Shown piece by piece: positions 44,148-49,704 of a stretch of 64,000 nucleotides of DNA (positions are counted from its first letter, which is position 1; each line of letters starts with the position of its first letter). The notes beneath the pieces are model-generated. The model was not told the DNA's origin and made no database searches. It saw only the letters and a list, made by a program, of their open reading frames with translations. The position numbers and the translations under genes were made by a program. The stretch covers positions 2,356,001 to 2,420,000 of the forward strand of contig NC_013165.1 in NCBI RefSeq assembly GCF_000023885.1, read 5' to 3'. Source of the stretch: Slackia heliotrinireducens DSM 20476 (GTDB lineage Bacteria; Actinomycetota; Coriobacteriia; Coriobacteriales; Eggerthellaceae).

Positions 44148-45350
44148 CTACGGCTGCACGACTCCCGTCAGTGCAGCAATGGCGATGACGACGACAAACA
44201 GAACAAGGGCAACCAGTCCCGTCAGCAAAAGGTTCAGGAAGAACCCCAGCTTGCGAAGCTTTGGGAAGCGCTTCTTCAAGAAATGCTTGTCGACAAGCGC
44301 CCAGAAGGCGCACAGCATCCAGCCGCCAGCCAAAAAACCGTAGACGACCACCCTGAACCAAAAGGGCCACCCGCTGGGATCGTCATCACCTATGATGCAG
44401 AGCCACAGAATCCAGGACATGGCAAGCACGCACAGCGCGAGCAGCGCATTCCATATCATGGCGAGCGACGACACGAACAGCGATCGGGGCTTCATCTCTG
44501 GTTCGGCGGCCGAAGCCGACTCAGCCTTCAACGGCACGGCAGGCTCGGAGCCGCCCAATGCGCGGGACACGGCCTGCTTAAGCTCCGCTGCCGAAGAGAA
44601 CCGCTTCGCAGGATCGAACGCGGTGGCCTTCGCCAAAACGCTGCGCATGGCAGGGGTCGTTTGGGCCTGCGCGAACCCATCGGCCAGGTCCGACTGGGTC
44701 GGCATGCGCCCCAACAGGCAAAACGCGTATACCATACCCAAAGCATAGATGTCGCTGGCCACGCTCGATTGGGCATAGCCGAACTGCTCGGGGGCTGCAT
44801 AGCCTCGCATGCCGAAGGGGTTCGTATCCCGTTCGGCCCCCGACGCGTATTCCCGCGCCACGTCGAAATCGACCAGAACGGGCATGTCTTTAGCGGTTAT
44901 GACGATGTTTCCAGGCTGCAGGTCCCGATGGATGATGGGAGGATCGAACCCTTCGTGCAATTCCGACAAGGCGTCCGCCAGCCGCAAAAACACCGTCTGC
45001 AACCGCTCGCGGTCATATGTGCCCGAAAGGACGCACTGCTCAAGGGTCCGACCTTCGACAAACTCCATGACGACGACCGTTGTACCCGGTTCATGCTCTA
45101 CCTCGTAGATGAGGGGGACGTACTTGTAGCGAAGGCCCCGCTGCTGCGCCTCGTACAGAACATCGTACGCACGGCCGAACCCTTGGACATCCGCCATGAT
45201 TTTCCGAATGCGCAGCGGGCCGGTCGACCCGTCCCTACGCACAGGCAAAACCGCCTGGACAGTTTCGGCGGCATTGGCTGACAGCACCTGCTCGACACGA
45301 TATCGTCCGTCGTCATGTTCTTGCGCCGCATATATCTTCTGATTGTCCAT
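44148..45350 (-). CDS. Membrane-anchored Hanks-type kinase with degenerate motifs
   Basis: A 400-residue protein with an N-terminal kinase fold (about 15-265) and three to four membrane helices after residue 310. The beta-3 lysine (K50) and HRD (141-143) are kept, but the catalytic-loop lysine is glutamine (HRDLQPGN) and DFG is DFD (161-163). The glycine-rich loop is poor. It may be a weak kinase or pseudokinase. It closely parallels the next kinase upstream, whose stop lies six bases before this ATG (GGAG within the overlap), so they are coupled and perhaps a pair. Last gene of the cluster. Confidence 0.85.
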   Translation of the reverse strand: MDNQKIYAAQEHDDGRYRVEQVLSANAAETVQAVLPVRRDGSTGPLRIRKIMADVQGFGRAYDVLYEAQQRGLRYKYVPLIYEVEHEPGTTVVVMEFVEGRTLEQCVLSGTYDRERLQTVFLRLADALSELHEGFDPPIIHRDLQPGNIVITAKDMPVLVDFDVAREYASGAERDTNPFGMRGYAAPEQFGYAQSSVASDIYALGMVYAFCLLGRMPTQSDLADGFAQAQTTPAMRSVLAKATAFDPAKRFSSAAELKQAVSRALGGSEPAVPLKAESASAAEPEMKPRSLFVSSLAMIWNALLALCVLAMSWILWLCIIGDDDPSGWPFWFRVVVYGFLAGGWMLCAFWALVDKHFLKKRFPKLRKLGFFLNLLLTGLVALVLFVVVIAIAALTGVVQP

Positions 45351-45356
45351 CGTCCA

Positions 45357-46667
45357 CTACTCCAACCCTAAAGACAGCGGCACGAAGATCACAAGGATCA
45401 AAAACGCGATGTAGGCGATGGCCGTCAAAATGAGGTTCGGCACGAAACGAATATTCCGAAGGACCTTGAACCGCCGCTTGAGCGGGTATTTGTCCAGCAA
45501 GATCCAGCCGATGGCAATAGCGAACATCGGCAGGACAAACACGTACACAAGGAAATCGAACAGATAGGAATTCCCTTGCGTTCCCGCTATGGTCAGACCC
45601 ATAAGAGATCTTACCGTGAAGTACGCCGCCAGCCCGATAATAAGGACGTTCCAGACAAAACCCAAGCGCGAGAGCCAAACGGGCCTCGGCTTCAGGGCGG
45701 TGGAATCCGAGTCCGCAACGGCCGATCGGCCGGCGAGCCGAAATATACCTGGCTTAGACGAATGCGCAGGCGACGCGGCTGAGCCGTCGTTCGCAACGAC
45801 CCAATAGCTGACGCGCCTGTCCCCATCCGGCCGCGACGGGAGAACCTTCGCGCTCTCGTTTCCGCCGTTTCGGCATGCCGCATCAAGCGCCGTTTTGAGC
45901 TCCGACACGCTGGCGAAGCGGTCGTCGGGACTGAAGGCCGTGGCTTTGGCAATGACATTCCGCACCAAGTCGGACGCAGGCAGGTTTGAGAACCCGGCTT
46001 CCCTATCGGCTTGAGTCGGCGTGCGGCCCAACAGGCAATACGCAATCACCATACCCAGCGCGTATACGTCGCTGCGCACGGTGGTCTGGGCATAGCCGAA
46101 CTGCTCCGGCGGCGCATAGGCGCGCGTGCCGAAGTGGTTCGTGTCCTCATCGGAACCGGGCTTGTATTCCCGCGAGATTCCGAAGTCGATAAGCACCGGC
46201 ACGCCCATCTTGCTGATCATGATGTTGGAAGGCTTCAGGTCCCGATGGATGATGGGCTGCGCGAACCCTTCGTGAAGCTCGATCAAGGCGTCGCACAGTT
46301 GCATGAACAGCGCAGTCGTTTGCTCCCACGACAGATGGTTCGCCTCGAGATGCTTGTCCAGCGAAAGGCCCTGGACCCGCTCCATCACGACAACGGTCTC
46401 GTCGTCGTAGCGTTCAACTTCGTATACTGCGGGAATGTGCTTGAAGCGGTAGCCGCTGCGCTGCGCCTGGCGGATGAGCTCGTAGGCGCTGCCCACGCCG
46501 TGCCCGCTGGCGATGATTTTGCGGATGCACTGCTGACCGAGGGATCCGTCGTAGCCGATGGCAGACACCAGCTGCGTCGTCTCGATCGGGCTCGACTTGA
46601 TGACGGCGTCCACGTGGTAACGCTCGCCATGGGCAAGTTCGTTCAAATATGCATCCAATTCGTTCAT
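45357..46667 (-). CDS. Membrane-anchored Hanks-type Ser/Thr kinase
   Basis: A 436-residue kinase with standard catalytic motifs: K50, HRDLKPSN (141-148), DFG (161-163) and APPE (185-188). The glycine loop is replaced by VIKSSPIETTQLV. Three membrane helices follow residue 335, without PASTA repeats, so the sensor would be in the membrane or absent. ATG at 46667 matches the paralogue's start; no clear ribosome site is seen. Cotranscribed with the degenerate kinase downstream. Substrates are unknown; the two helix-turn-helix proteins upstream are the obvious candidates. Confidence 0.9.
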   Translation of the reverse strand: MNELDAYLNELAHGERYHVDAVIKSSPIETTQLVSAIGYDGSLGQQCIRKIIASGHGVGSAYELIRQAQRSGYRFKHIPAVYEVERYDDETVVVMERVQGLSLDKHLEANHLSWEQTTALFMQLCDALIELHEGFAQPIIHRDLKPSNIMISKMGVPVLIDFGISREYKPGSDEDTNHFGTRAYAPPEQFGYAQTTVRSDVYALGMVIAYCLLGRTPTQADREAGFSNLPASDLVRNVIAKATAFSPDDRFASVSELKTALDAACRNGGNESAKVLPSRPDGDRRVSYWVVANDGSAASPAHSSKPGIFRLAGRSAVADSDSTALKPRPVWLSRLGFVWNVLIIGLAAYFTVRSLMGLTIAGTQGNSYLFDFLVYVFVLPMFAIAIGWILLDKYPLKRRFKVLRNIRFVPNLILTAIAYIAFLILVIFVPLSLGLE

Positions 46668-46757
46668 GGTGGTATGGTACCAAAGCTTTCGGCGTGCACT
46701 GTCCACAAACGCGTACATGAGGGCCGTATCGGTTGCTGCGGCCCTATAGGCCGACGC

Positions 46758-46856
46758 GGAAGGCGCATACGCCATGCTCAAACAGTCCTGCTTTGGCGAA
46801 ATGTCCGCCGGACATTTCGCGTCGTGCGGAACTGCGCGTGGCATACGCGCCTTCTG
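46758..46856 (-). repeat. Long imperfect hairpin between HTH and kinase genes
   Basis: Outer arms 46758-46777 and 46836-46855 (GAAGGCGCATACGCCATGC and its near complement) enclose an inner perfect 11-pair stem CGAAATGTCCG (46797-46807) / CGGACATTTCG (46809-46819) with a single-base centre. The whole spans about 99 bases in a 221-bp gap. No U-run follows, so it may regulate read-through to the kinases or be a palindromic element. Confidence 0.6.
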
Positions 46857-46888
46857 CCCCTGACCGAACAGTGGCGGATCGGTTGTGC

Positions 46889-47332
46889 CTAATCGGGGTC
46901 GTAAAGCGCCTTATGGCCTCGTTTGACCAGTTCGTCGTTGCATTCCATCATGCTCATGCCCTTGTTGACGCAGAAGATGATGATGGCGTCCCGTTCGTTT
47001 TTGGGAGACAACGGGCTCAGCCCTGCCGCCTGCAGCGTACGGGCGGATTCTTTCAGGTCCATTTGCATTGCGAACACAAGCTGCAGCACCCTGTCGCGGG
47101 CCGGGTGCTCCTTGCGCCCGGAAATGATCTCGTATCCGTACGTATACCCTATTTCCGTTTCAGCCAGGACCTTCGACTGGACCAAGCCCTTCTTGTCCAG
47201 CAAGTGCTGTAGGTAATCCGACAGGGTCCGCCGGCCAGGCTGGCGTTCTCCCAAGTAGGAATCGAGGTTCGGCGCCGCAAGCAGCTCGTCGAGCAGCTCG
47301 TCAGTCAACGGTTCTGTCTGGGTTTCGTCCAT
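46889..47332 (-). CDS. Small XRE-like helix-turn-helix protein (copy 1)
   Basis: Cytosolic protein of 147 residues. The acidic N-terminus is followed by LSDYLQHLLDKKGLVQSKVL, ETEIGYTYGYEIISGRKEH and ARDRVLQLVFAMQMDLKESA, an XRE-type DNA-binding layout, then LSPKNERDAIIIFCVNKG. The same order is in its neighbour at 47398-47859. Proteins of this type are often encoded beside Ser/Thr kinases. ATG at 47332 has GAGGG four bases upstream. It lies directly upstream of the kinase pair. Confidence 0.72.
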   Translation of the reverse strand: MDETQTEPLTDELLDELLAAPNLDSYLGERQPGRRTLSDYLQHLLDKKGLVQSKVLAETEIGYTYGYEIISGRKEHPARDRVLQLVFAMQMDLKESARTLQAAGLSPLSPKNERDAIIIFCVNKGMSMMECNDELVKRGHKALYDPD

Positions 47333-47397
47333 GCGGCCCTCGTTCCTATAGGGTAATCGGCTTTTCTGAAGTATAAGCCAACGCACGCACGGCAACG

Positions 47398-47859
47398 TCA
47401 GCAGATTGTCTCTTCGGCGCGGCGATACAGTTCGGCGTTCGTCTGCTGCAGCGAGTAGCCCTTGTTCATGCAGAACAGGATGATGGCGTCGCGACGGTCT
47501 TTCGGATACAGCGTGTTGACCCCGGCCGCCTGGAGCAGGCGGTTGGATTCGCGGATGCTGAGTTTCATGCCGAACGCCAGCTGCAGCACCTTATCGCGGC
47601 TGGGGTTGCGCTGCCCGGTGAAAATCTGGTACCCGTAGGTTTCGTTGAGGTCGGACTCGCGCACGACCCGCGACCTGACCAGCTCCTTCTCTTCTAACAG
47701 CTGTTTAAGGTATTCGGGAAGCGTCCGCTTGATGCTCGGGTGCCCGTCGAGATAGCCTTGCACATCCTCCGTTTCCAGCAGCTCCCCCATCAGATCCTCG
47801 GTCAGCGGCTCAGCAGGACGGATGGTCTGCATGCGTCGCGCATTGTCTTCTTGTCGCAT
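47398..47859 (-). CDS. Small XRE-like helix-turn-helix protein (copy 2)
   Basis: Paralogue of the preceding protein, 153 residues: LPEYLKQLLEEKELVRSRVV, NETYGYQIFTGQRNPSRDKV, LQLAFGMKLSIRESNRLLQA and LYPKDRRDAIILFCMNKGYS. The TYGYxI and RDAII(I/L)F blocks are nearly identical between copies, suggesting a shared DNA site or partner. The start is uncertain: ATG 47859 is chosen because GGCGGA lies upstream and ATG 47877 abuts the terminator of the lipoprotein gene. Confidence 0.72.
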   Translation of the reverse strand: MRQEDNARRMQTIRPAEPLTEDLMGELLETEDVQGYLDGHPSIKRTLPEYLKQLLEEKELVRSRVVRESDLNETYGYQIFTGQRNPSRDKVLQLAFGMKLSIRESNRLLQAAGVNTLYPKDRRDAIILFCMNKGYSLQQTNAELYRRAEETIC

Positions 47860-47877
47860 TCGATGTTCCGCCTTCAT

Positions 47878-47899
47878 GAAAGAGGTGCACCGAAATGCA
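47878..47899 (-). terminator. Terminator between lipoprotein and HTH genes
   Basis: Minus-strand stem AAGAGGTGCA/TGCACCTCTT with a six-base loop, then TCATG. It follows the lipoprotein stop by about 50 bases; the U-run is short. Confidence 0.62.
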
Positions 47900-47948
47900 C
47901 CTCTTGATGTTTGCATGTCTCAGGATCGGCGTCACAGCGCCGCTGCTA

Positions 47949-48545
47949 TTACAGATATGCGTTTAGGGCCGCATCCTCGTAGGCGCTGGTGATTTCCATC
48001 GACTGGGCCTCGTAGACGTCGTAGAGCTTCATGCTCCAATCCTCGTACACCTCGTAATCGTCGCCGTCGCGATACATGACCAGCGCCATGCGCTCGGTGC
48101 CTTGCGTCTCGATAAGCGCCAGCTCCTGAATCTTGTCGGTGCAGATGTTAGCCAGTTCAACCATGTCGGTAACGCCCTCCGCTTCGGCGTTGAACTCCTC
48201 GATCAGCGTCGGCGTGGCCTCTTCCAACTGAGCCGTGTAGTCAGCCAGAATGCTCTCGTAGGTGGCGTCACCAATCGAGTCGACATCTTCCTGCGATGCC
48301 TCTTCGGCCGCTTTTTCGGCATCGGGCTCAGCAGCAGGTTCGGGCTCAACGGCTGCCTCGGGCTCAGCGGCCTGTTCAGCCTCCGCGGTCGTCTCGGTCG
48401 CCGCAGGCTCAGGGTCGGACGCCTCGTCTTTCTGGGCGCCCTCGCCTCCTCCGCAGGAAGCAAGCAGAACCGCCAGCACAAGGCCCGCTAGCACAAGGGC
48501 GTATTTCATGACGAAGCTATCGCGTGCGTATCCTTCGCTGTGCAT
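47949..48545 (-). CDS. Lipoprotein with Glu/Ala/Pro-rich linker
   Basis: Secreted lipoprotein of 198 residues: signal peptide, lipobox LLASC, an acidic Ala/Pro/Glu linker (about 37-92) probably spanning the cell wall, then an all-helical domain (YESILADYTAQLEEATPTLI onwards) with no recognised family. ATG at 48545 has GGGAG five bases upstream; a later ATG at 48509 lacks one. It follows the DUF5067 lipoprotein by 21 bases. It may be a sensor or cargo of the kinase cluster, inferred from position only. Confidence 0.82.
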   Translation of the reverse strand: MHSEGYARDSFVMKYALVLAGLVLAVLLASCGGGEGAQKDEASDPEPAATETTAEAEQAAEPEAAVEPEPAAEPDAEKAAEEASQEDVDSIGDATYESILADYTAQLEEATPTLIEEFNAEAEGVTDMVELANICTDKIQELALIETQGTERMALVMYRDGDDYEVYEDWSMKLYDVYEAQSMEITSAYEDAALNAYL

Positions 48546-48566
48546 AGTTACTCCCGTCGCCTTTGG

Positions 48567-49112
48567 CTATTCCACGCTGAACGTGGCCGTCGCGATGATG
48601 GTCTCTTCCCACTGCCAGCTGTCTTCGACTTCGACCTCGACTTCGGACGTGTCATCCAACAGGTATGCAACCTGGTAGGACGTGGTTGCACCGGGCTTTA
48701 CGTCGTTCCATTCGCTGTCGTTGTCGATGTCGGAAACTATCCCGCGCTCAAGCTCGACTCCGTTCTGGTAGGCCTTCGAATAAAGCGCAGCCGCAGCACT
48801 GGTCTTTTCCTCGGAATTGTTCGTCCAGGTGTAGTCGACGATGATGCACGGGTTGCCCTCGTAGTCCTCGCCCAAAGACGACCCATCGATGGTCACGGCG
48901 TAATTGGATTCGACCGTTTCCTCTTCAGGCTCGGCCGCTGGTTCGGGCTCGGCGGCCTCTTCAGGCTCGGCGGCTTCCTGAGTCTCGGTGCTTGCGGAAT
49001 CGGCCGCATCCGCCCCTTCGTCGCTCGACGAGCACGCAGCCAGTACCAGCATGCCGCAAAGGGCCATCGCAACCATCGCGATTCCCAGAATCTTCTTCGT
49101 TTGTTTCTTCAT
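48567..49112 (-). CDS. DUF5067-like lipoprotein
   Basis: Secreted lipoprotein of 181 residues with lipobox LVLAAC, an acidic linker (about 32-65) and a single beta domain: NYAVTIDGSSLGEDYEGNPC, IIVDYTWTNNSEEKTS, YQNGVELERGI and VKPGATTSYQVAYLL. This fits DUF5067, an immunoglobulin-like domain of unknown function common in gut bacteria beside kinases and lipoproteins. ATG at 49112 follows AAAGGGAG. Same strand and close to its neighbours. Confidence 0.82.
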   Translation of the reverse strand: MKKQTKKILGIAMVAMALCGMLVLAACSSSDEGADAADSASTETQEAAEPEEAAEPEPAAEPEEETVESNYAVTIDGSSLGEDYEGNPCIIVDYTWTNNSEEKTSAAAALYSKAYQNGVELERGIVSDIDNDSEWNDVKPGATTSYQVAYLLDDTSEVEVEVEDSWQWEETIIATATFSVE

Positions 49113-49148
49113 TACGACTCCCTTTCGTTCGTTATGCCAGCCGAATCG

Positions 49149-49511
49149 CTACTGCGCCTTCGGCGTACGGCTCCGGACAATGTCAATAACGGCAACCACG
49201 GCGCAGATGAGGCACCATCCAGCCCAAATACGCAGGTCGGAATAGCTTCCGGCAAGTGCGAAGCCGAGCAGCGCCGCGAGTCCGAACACGACGGCGAGCG
49301 CGATGTTGCCGCCGCGGCCCTGGCTGTTGCGAACGGCGATCGCCACGATGCCGCCGGCCAGCAGCAGGATGGCCACAAGGACCCCCGCCGACCCGCCTAC
49401 CTCGCCGCTGTTCTCCAGGCTGTTGCTCAGCCCGGCGGCGCAAGATTGGAATAGAACGAATACGCTCAGGACAATCGAGAGAATGCCCGACACCAGCTTC
49501 CAAATTTTCAT
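49149..49511 (-). CDS. Small four-helix membrane protein
   Basis: A 120-residue hydrophobic protein with four probable helices (about 5-25, 42-60, 67-86, 93-112) and no recognised motif. AAACGCC and GAGG precede ATG 49511. It stands first in the run of same-strand genes leading to the lipoproteins, HTH proteins and kinases, 36 bases from the next. Function unknown. Confidence 0.72.
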   Translation of the reverse strand: MKIWKLVSGILSIVLSVFVLFQSCAAGLSNSLENSGEVGGSAGVLVAILLLAGGIVAIAVRNSQGRGGNIALAVVFGLAALLGFALAGSYSDLRIWAGWCLICAVVAVIDIVRSRTPKAQ

Positions 49512-49704
49512 TGGCGTTTCCTCCTGCCATCAATCGGTGTTGACAGTGAAAACGGTACCCGTCTTGGTCGTTCGTTTCATTAGCTGTCAGCTAAGACTTC
49601 GGCGGCGGTCGCCGACACCCCATCGCCCTTTAGAACCGTATTCGAGGTCCGTGTCCAAGTTTTCAGCAGAAACGAAAAGGAGGCCTCCGACGGTTGATCA
49701 GGCC

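Follow-up and report, generated by a model that had tools for sequence, protein, structure and literature searches.

The window considered here is a stretch of 64,000 nucleotides from Slackia heliotrinireducens DSM 20476 (NC_013165.1, positions 2,356,001 to 2,420,000), which harbors a cluster of seven genes on the minus strand, running from position 49511 down to 44148 (Table 1). In order, the genes encode a small membrane protein, two lipoproteins, two helix-turn-helix (HTH) proteins, termed HTH-1 and HTH-2, and two Hanks-type Ser/Thr kinases, termed kinase A and kinase B. All seven open reading frames of the preliminary description were confirmed on this strand, at or very near the coordinates first assigned to them. 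No histidine kinase or receiver domain, the marks of a two-component system, is found in the seven proteins (Pfam, E<=1). The cluster derives from a two-gene unit that is widespread and has been duplicated in this lineage; in the unit, an XRE-like protein is followed by a membrane-anchored Hanks kinase.

Table 1. Genes and other features of the HTH-kinase cluster, with positions given in the window
Feature	Position	Strand	Remarks
Predicted operator, perfect palindrome TTAGCTGTCAGCTAA	49580..49594	.	69 bp 5' of first gene
Inferred -10 element TACCGT	49552..49557	-	Fixed spacing from operator; footprint A38 and T42 in 47/48 loci
Small membrane protein, first gene	49149..49511	-	Homologues in same place in L189 (one other family genome) and in a Lacticaseibacillus phage
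DUF5067 lipoprotein	48567..49112	-	Pfam PF16729, E=2.4e-33
Acidic lipoprotein, no family	47949..48545	-	Lipobox LLASC; true start probably internal Met near 48509
Hairpin, 10-bp stem, between second lipoprotein gene and HTH-1	47880..47905	-	Possible attenuator or processing site
HTH-1, conserved XRE-fold regulator	47398..47859	-	Canonical recognition helix NETYGYQIF
HTH-2, fast-diverging paralogue	46889..47332	-	Recognition helix GYTYGYEII
Dispersed ~110-bp covarying hairpin element, HTH-2/kinase A gap	46754..46860	-	Probably unrelated insert
Kinase A, Hanks-type domain and three C-terminal membrane helices (predicted)	45357..46667	-	HRDLKPSN and DFG intact
Kinase B, diverged paralogue	44148..45350	-	HRDLQPGN, DFD, T181M; probably impaired or pseudokinase

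The conservation of the unit was assessed in a set of 81 loci, comprising the window and the best 80 of 243 HTH relatives from a scan of named genomes. These loci were fetched by the HTH protein alone and not by any operator motif, and all are from Coriobacteriia, near-duplicate Collinsella included; the 80 kept relatives encompass Collinsella, Olsenella, Thermophilibacter, Enorma, Eggerthella, Paraeggerthella, Gordonibacter, Adlercreutzia, Slackia and other genera. A kinase gene is found directly downstream of the HTH gene, on the same strand, in 78 of the 81 loci, the three exceptions being L066, in which the kinase gene is divergent, L077, in which the kinase is without its core, and L108, which has no kinase. 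In a larger set of 138 HTH hits (the window and 128 loci, some of them chosen by hand because they were second copies), 133 have a kinase within 1.5 kb, arranged as HTH then kinase (120), divergently (8) or as kinase then HTH (5). The neighbourhood extends to Listeria, and because it is conserved the cluster cannot be put down to chance; the earlier proposal that the HTH protein and the kinase form a linked unit is therefore borne out. With HTH-2 as the query, relatives were found in 95 of the 119 family genomes, and a class sample gave an HTH match at E<=1e-6 in 101 of 197 genomes. A phylum sample of 396 yielded 8 matches outside the class, all weak and mostly in long reading frames. An HTH gene and a kinase gene were also recovered together on three viral-collection contigs by a search with a wider alignment; a first, narrower alignment gave no relatives in viral contigs, and a single-protein query gave none in genome contigs.

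A second HTH-kinase type was seen at loci L146-L156, L168, L173, L190, L192 and L193. Its kinases are longer, at about 540-635 aa, and many have HxDIAP or HRDIS replacing HRDLKP. The TTAGCT palindrome described below is absent from these loci, and an operator of their own was not found in them.

A Pfam search (E<=1) assigned neither HTH-1 nor HTH-2 to an HTH family, and HTH-1 gives only a weak match (0.0015) to capH in PADLOC. Nonetheless, the XRE-like identity first assigned to these proteins is upheld by the AlphaFold (AF2) model of HTH-1, which has a mean predicted local distance difference test score of 90.5. Residues from about 44 to 113 of the model adopt the five-helix DNA-binding fold of the lambda, 434 and P22 repressors, with extra helices on both sides, and the fold search returned C.AhdI (Z 9.5), P22 c2 (Z 9.1) and SinR (Z 8.8) over about 61-66 residues. 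No fold match spanning the whole model was found, the N- and C-terminal helices not having been searched alone. Phosphonate synthases were also matched, which probably reflects an HTH-like domain embedded within them. The two HTH proteins share identical blocks that had been read as a possible kinase-docking or DNA site. One of these blocks, TYGY, sits on the DNA-recognition helix, so that its identity is better accounted for by DNA recognition than by kinase docking, which was rejected as the cause; the other, RDAII, is part of an extension of two helices at the C terminus, where it falls in the first helix. Elsewhere in the genome (L166:5354-6292, genome position about 2,313,000) there is a gene for a third HTH relative, which is more distant and has a long N-terminal stretch of low complexity, and no kinase of the window family was found in the 12 kb examined around it.

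Both kinases score above the cut-off for PF00069 (E=1e-29 for kinase A and E=1.2e-23 for kinase B), and the kinase A model matches PknB structures with E about 5e-15, identifying it as a Hanks kinase by both profile and fold. The catalytic lysine (K50), the HRD aspartate (D143), the asparagine (N148) and the DFG aspartate (D161) are present in both proteins, and the glycine-rich loop GxGxxG is absent from both. The lysine of the HRDxK motif is kept in kinase A and replaced by glutamine in kinase B (K145Q). In the AlphaFold model of kinase A, a disordered linker joins the kinase domain to three long helices at the C terminus, which are taken as membrane helices from the model; the loops between these helices are very short and would hardly accommodate an extracytoplasmic sensor domain. 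Kinase B departs from the consensus at K145, G163 and T181, and is the sole case among 128 aligned kinases in which three of eight catalytic positions are changed; the replacement of T181 is peculiar to it. To judge from these changes, it is probably an impaired kinase or a pseudokinase. Its DFD motif would not by itself justify such a call, as aspartate occupies that position in 8 of 125 aligned kinases, including those of Listeria. Kinase-based defence families in PADLOC, PD-T4-6 among them, are also matched (best E=5.8e-39), with matches confined to the kinase domain, as many Hanks kinases would be expected to give.

The HTH proteins share 45-47% identity, and the kinases are 42% identical from end to end and 50% identical when the kinase part alone is compared. 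HTH-1 and HTH-2 are each other's closest relatives in a tree of 99 HTH sequences (support 0.935), as are kinases A and B in a tree of 103 kinase sequences (support 0.853), so both sets are paralogues, as initially thought. The pairs are the product of a local duplication and not part of the design of the system, most relatives carrying one HTH gene and one kinase gene. The second copies have the longer branches (0.71 for HTH-2 against 0.31 for HTH-1; 1.22 for kinase B against 0.61 for kinase A), and the recognition helix is altered in HTH-2, with GYTYGYEII in place of the NETYGYQIF of HTH-1. From their sequences, HTH-2 and kinase B look like decoy or modulator copies. In loci L161-L164 the gene order is HTH-kinase-HTH, with a lower-scoring second HTH that parallels HTH-2, and in L163 and L164 a DUF5067 gene follows.

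Upstream of the first gene lies the perfect palindrome TTAGCTNNNAGCTAA, which is unique in the window, also when two mismatches are allowed. This 15-mer occurs exactly in 114 of 211 loci, overlapping loci included. As a 17-mer, with its trailing TG, it is found upstream of the HTH gene in 60 of the 81 loci exactly and in 72 with at most one mismatch, as compared with 0 in shuffles (one shuffle per locus, possibly cut to 90% of length). In 48 non-redundant loci, left after the removal of upstream regions more than 85% identical, positions outside the search pattern are also conserved: T15 and G16 in 48/48, followed by A/T, then T37 in 40/48, A38 in 47/48 and T42 in 47/48. Where a consensus -35 would be expected, these loci have ATGAAA or ATGTTT, with a TG that is the same in all 48. 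With the -10 element at fixed spacing and a start site assumed about 7 nt after it, the centre of the palindrome falls near -42. This is the classical position for an activator in contact with the -35 region, such as lambda CI at PRM. A scan for the sigma-70 consensus scored no higher than shuffles.

Genome-wide, the exact 17-mer is present in 70 of 118 Eggerthellaceae genomes, usually at one site, versus 2 genomes for a reversed control pattern. An HTH gene is found no more than 3 kb away from 68 of the 83 sites (counting HTH hits with E below about 1e-12, weaker ones being omitted, and opposite-strand matches of one site once), and 68 of the 70 site-bearing genomes also have the HTH gene. 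The type-2 loci L146-L156, whose recognition helix reads NxTFVYDIF or similar, are without the motif. Moreover, in L066 and L182 the helix is SPTYGYMIF or IPTYGYMIF instead of NETFGYQIF, and the palindrome is changed to TTAACTNNNAGTTAA. The clustering of sites at HTH genes, the lack of the motif in type-2 loci and the covariation of helix and palindrome together argue that the HTH protein reads the palindrome, and its binding to this predicted operator, which the covariation supports, is strongly suggested.

A further palindrome, AAATGTCC, which precedes the kinase A gene, was considered as an operator for HTH-2 and set aside because it forms the core of a dispersed hairpin element of ~110 nt (46754-46860). 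This element has 9 genomic copies at three or fewer mismatches in the core (control 0) and 46 predicted pairs, 19 of them with compensatory double changes; neither it nor anything else in the region 44000-50000 matches Rfam. The smaller hairpin at 47880-47905 could keep the regulator genes at a lower level of expression than the lipoprotein genes.

The genes placed between the operator and the HTH gene appear to be the output of the system. In 53 of 59 other loci this interval encodes a protein with a membrane- or signal-type hydrophobic segment, and when these 53 were scanned together with the DUF5067 protein of the window (115.2 bits, against a curated Pfam cut-off of 27), the 54 proteins gave overlapping counts at E<=0.01 of 25 for DUF5067, 24 for DUF4352, 15 for DUF3426, 12 for DUF4190 and 4 for Lipoprotein_Ltp. 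In phage TP-J34, Ltp acts in superinfection exclusion. Among the remote sites with a preserved -10 element, those at L246, L252, L258 and L259 precede genes for the same kinds of protein. The lipoproteins had been proposed as an input sensed through the membrane kinases. They look instead like output, since their genes are the first to follow the operator and differ between genomes; in addition, the kinase model has no sizeable extracytoplasmic domain. The small membrane protein is rare, occurring in 3 of 118 genomes; it belongs to the unit because in L189 its gene lies between a DUF5067 gene and the HTH gene, with the kinase gene next. Both its gene and the DUF5067 gene match PHROG families. 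A homologue is also found in Lacticaseibacillus phage R3.3 (L211:2478-3468), between genes read from their translations as integrase and repressor/ImmA and beside a gene for a membrane-anchored protein, a candidate superinfection-exclusion slot.

Outside the Coriobacteriia, the same three kinds of gene are adjacent in Listeria innocua and L. monocytogenes, where the HTH protein, the Hanks kinase and the DUF5067 lipoprotein recur, with the difference that the HTH gene is divergent and nothing is duplicated. The Listeria HTH homologue is 51% identical over 91 matched residues. From product and gene order we take these genes to be lmo0617-lmo0618-lmo0619, the L. monocytogenes homologue being, like lmo0618, a kinase of 380 aa. 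No paper treating the three genes as one system was found in the open-licence literature. In the available text of one study, an lmo0618 deletion was made for a mutant screen that scored replication inside Caco-2 cells, and a five- to tenfold reduction is given for all but one of the ten deletions in that screen (PMC3091722). Elsewhere, in the portion available, the N-terminal 115 residues of Lmo0618 are read as TraE1-like (PMC4379056).

The pairing of the genes, the geometry of operator and promoter, the near-single site per genome, the lipoprotein-type outputs and the duplication followed by divergence are all observed, and they can be brought together in a mechanism that we consider moderately probable, in which the HTH protein is under the control of the kinase and, by binding the predicted operator, sets the expression of its own operon and of the surface lipoproteins, and the second copies of S. 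heliotrinireducens have diverged into modulators. Kinase A would receive a signal at the membrane and, as the gene pairing suggests, phosphorylate HTH-1, encoded in its vicinity. A dimer of HTH-1 would then bind the palindrome, whose centre falls near -42 of the operon promoter, and would probably activate this promoter in the manner of lambda CI at PRM, giving an autoregulated output of surface lipoproteins, regulator and kinase. HTH-1 and kinase A would be the working copies, with HTH-2 and kinase B tuning the system, the former as a decoy substrate or a regulator of altered DNA specificity and the latter as an impaired kinase.

A number of observations weigh against this mechanism. The kinase activity of the family is not certain, because the glycine-rich loop is missing and the HRD lysine is absent from 28 of 125 aligned members. 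The HTH gene is without a nearby kinase in 5 of the 138 cases and in 2 (L207 and L208) of 16 further strong HTHs from later loci, the other 14 having one, and in L077 it is retained although the kinase core is deleted. At one mismatch no operator was found in 9 of the 81 loci, three of the 81 having short upstream sequence, and at two mismatches no operator with a -10 element was found in 15. Of the two sites in the S. heliotrinireducens genome, one is at this cluster and the other (L214) is not upstream of a lipoprotein gene and may precede an unrelated one. The sites at L245, L247 and L249 have a -10 element and lie before unrelated genes, and exact remote sites at L251 (plus strand), L255 and L256, which look like chance, have neither a -10 element nor a lipoprotein gene. 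The covariation of helix and operator comes from two loci, L066 and L182, which may share one ancestral change. Finally, neither the Coriobacteriia palindrome nor a clear common one was seen by eye between the divergent Listeria genes.

Four other explanations have been weighed. HTH-1 with kinase A and HTH-2 with kinase B could form two insulated signalling lines in place of a working pair and its decoys, in keeping with the duplication of both genes and the fast divergence of both second copies, as changed specificity would predict. Kinase B has lost three consensus residues of its catalytic site at once, however, and the cluster has a single operator of the known kind with no second kind found, so that this arrangement seems somewhat unlikely. 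The HTH protein might otherwise be an autorepressor at the same operator, with the kinase relieving repression. XRE-fold proteins are very often repressors, and a palindrome abutting the -35 region is equally suited to steric repression; the non-consensus -35 position with its invariant TG and the activator-like centre of the operator make repression rather unlikely. It is unlikely, too, that the kinase acts on envelope or other proteins while the HTH protein is merely the local regulator of a kinase-bearing operon: the available text of a review (PMC4601284) characterizes the Hanks kinases known from bacteria as pleiotropic, and L077 shows the HTH gene persisting beside a kinase without its core, yet the two genes stay together in two phyla through rearrangement (same strand, divergent and HTH-kinase-HTH), and their joint duplication in the window lineage argues against separate roles. 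Lastly, a phage-exclusion device, in which the regulator would turn on surface lipoproteins of superinfection-exclusion type, is very improbable in spite of the 4 Ltp-type proteins among 54 outputs, the phage R3.3 homologue and the PHROG matches, as most outputs are DUF5067/DUF4352 proteins to which no role is assigned and the reported phenotype of the Listeria kinase deletion is reduced growth in host cells (PMC3091722, available text).

The proposed mechanism, in which kinase A controls HTH-1, has parallels among known systems. With two-component systems it shares adjacent kinase and regulator genes, autoregulation, few targets and one-to-one partners, although a Hanks kinase and an XRE-fold protein take the place of the histidine kinase and the receiver-domain regulator. 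Lambda CI, which at OR2/PRM is an XRE-type dimer with its operator centre near -42 and autoregulates its own synthesis, has the same fold and operator position; CI also represses and has no kinase, which the window unit adds. Linked pairs of Ser/Thr kinase and regulator are already known, as in PknH-EmbR of Mycobacterium tuberculosis, where envelope genes are the targets of a transcription factor under the control of the kinase, which carries a sensor domain. EmbR differs from the XRE-fold protein HTH-1 in being a SARP/FHA protein. In the available text of the review cited above, PknH has further substrates, and EmbR2, a diverged paralogue of EmbR, competes for PknH without accepting phosphate (PMC4601284), a precedent for HTH-2 as a decoy regulator. 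Searches of the open-licence literature yielded no description of such a kinase that has an XRE-fold partner together with a near-single operator of its own and lipoprotein outputs that can be exchanged.

It is possible, and we put it forward tentatively, that the unit is a class-wide Ser/Thr-kinase counterpart of two-component systems, in which each kinase has a dedicated XRE-fold regulator and operator type, typically with one site per genome, where the lipoprotein outputs are exchangeable and duplicates give rise to a pseudokinase and a decoy. The same review, in the part available, contrasts pleiotropic Hanks kinases with histidine kinases that have one partner each (PMC4601284). If true, a class-wide one-to-one cassette would run counter to the general view of Hanks kinases as pleiotropic. 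The predicted 15-bp operator, the fixed promoter geometry and the near-single target make the role of an orphan kinase directly testable, in a unit that is present in the common gut genera Collinsella, Olsenella, Gordonibacter, Eggerthella and Slackia, and they would provide a handle on a little-studied Listeria kinase with a reported deletion phenotype.

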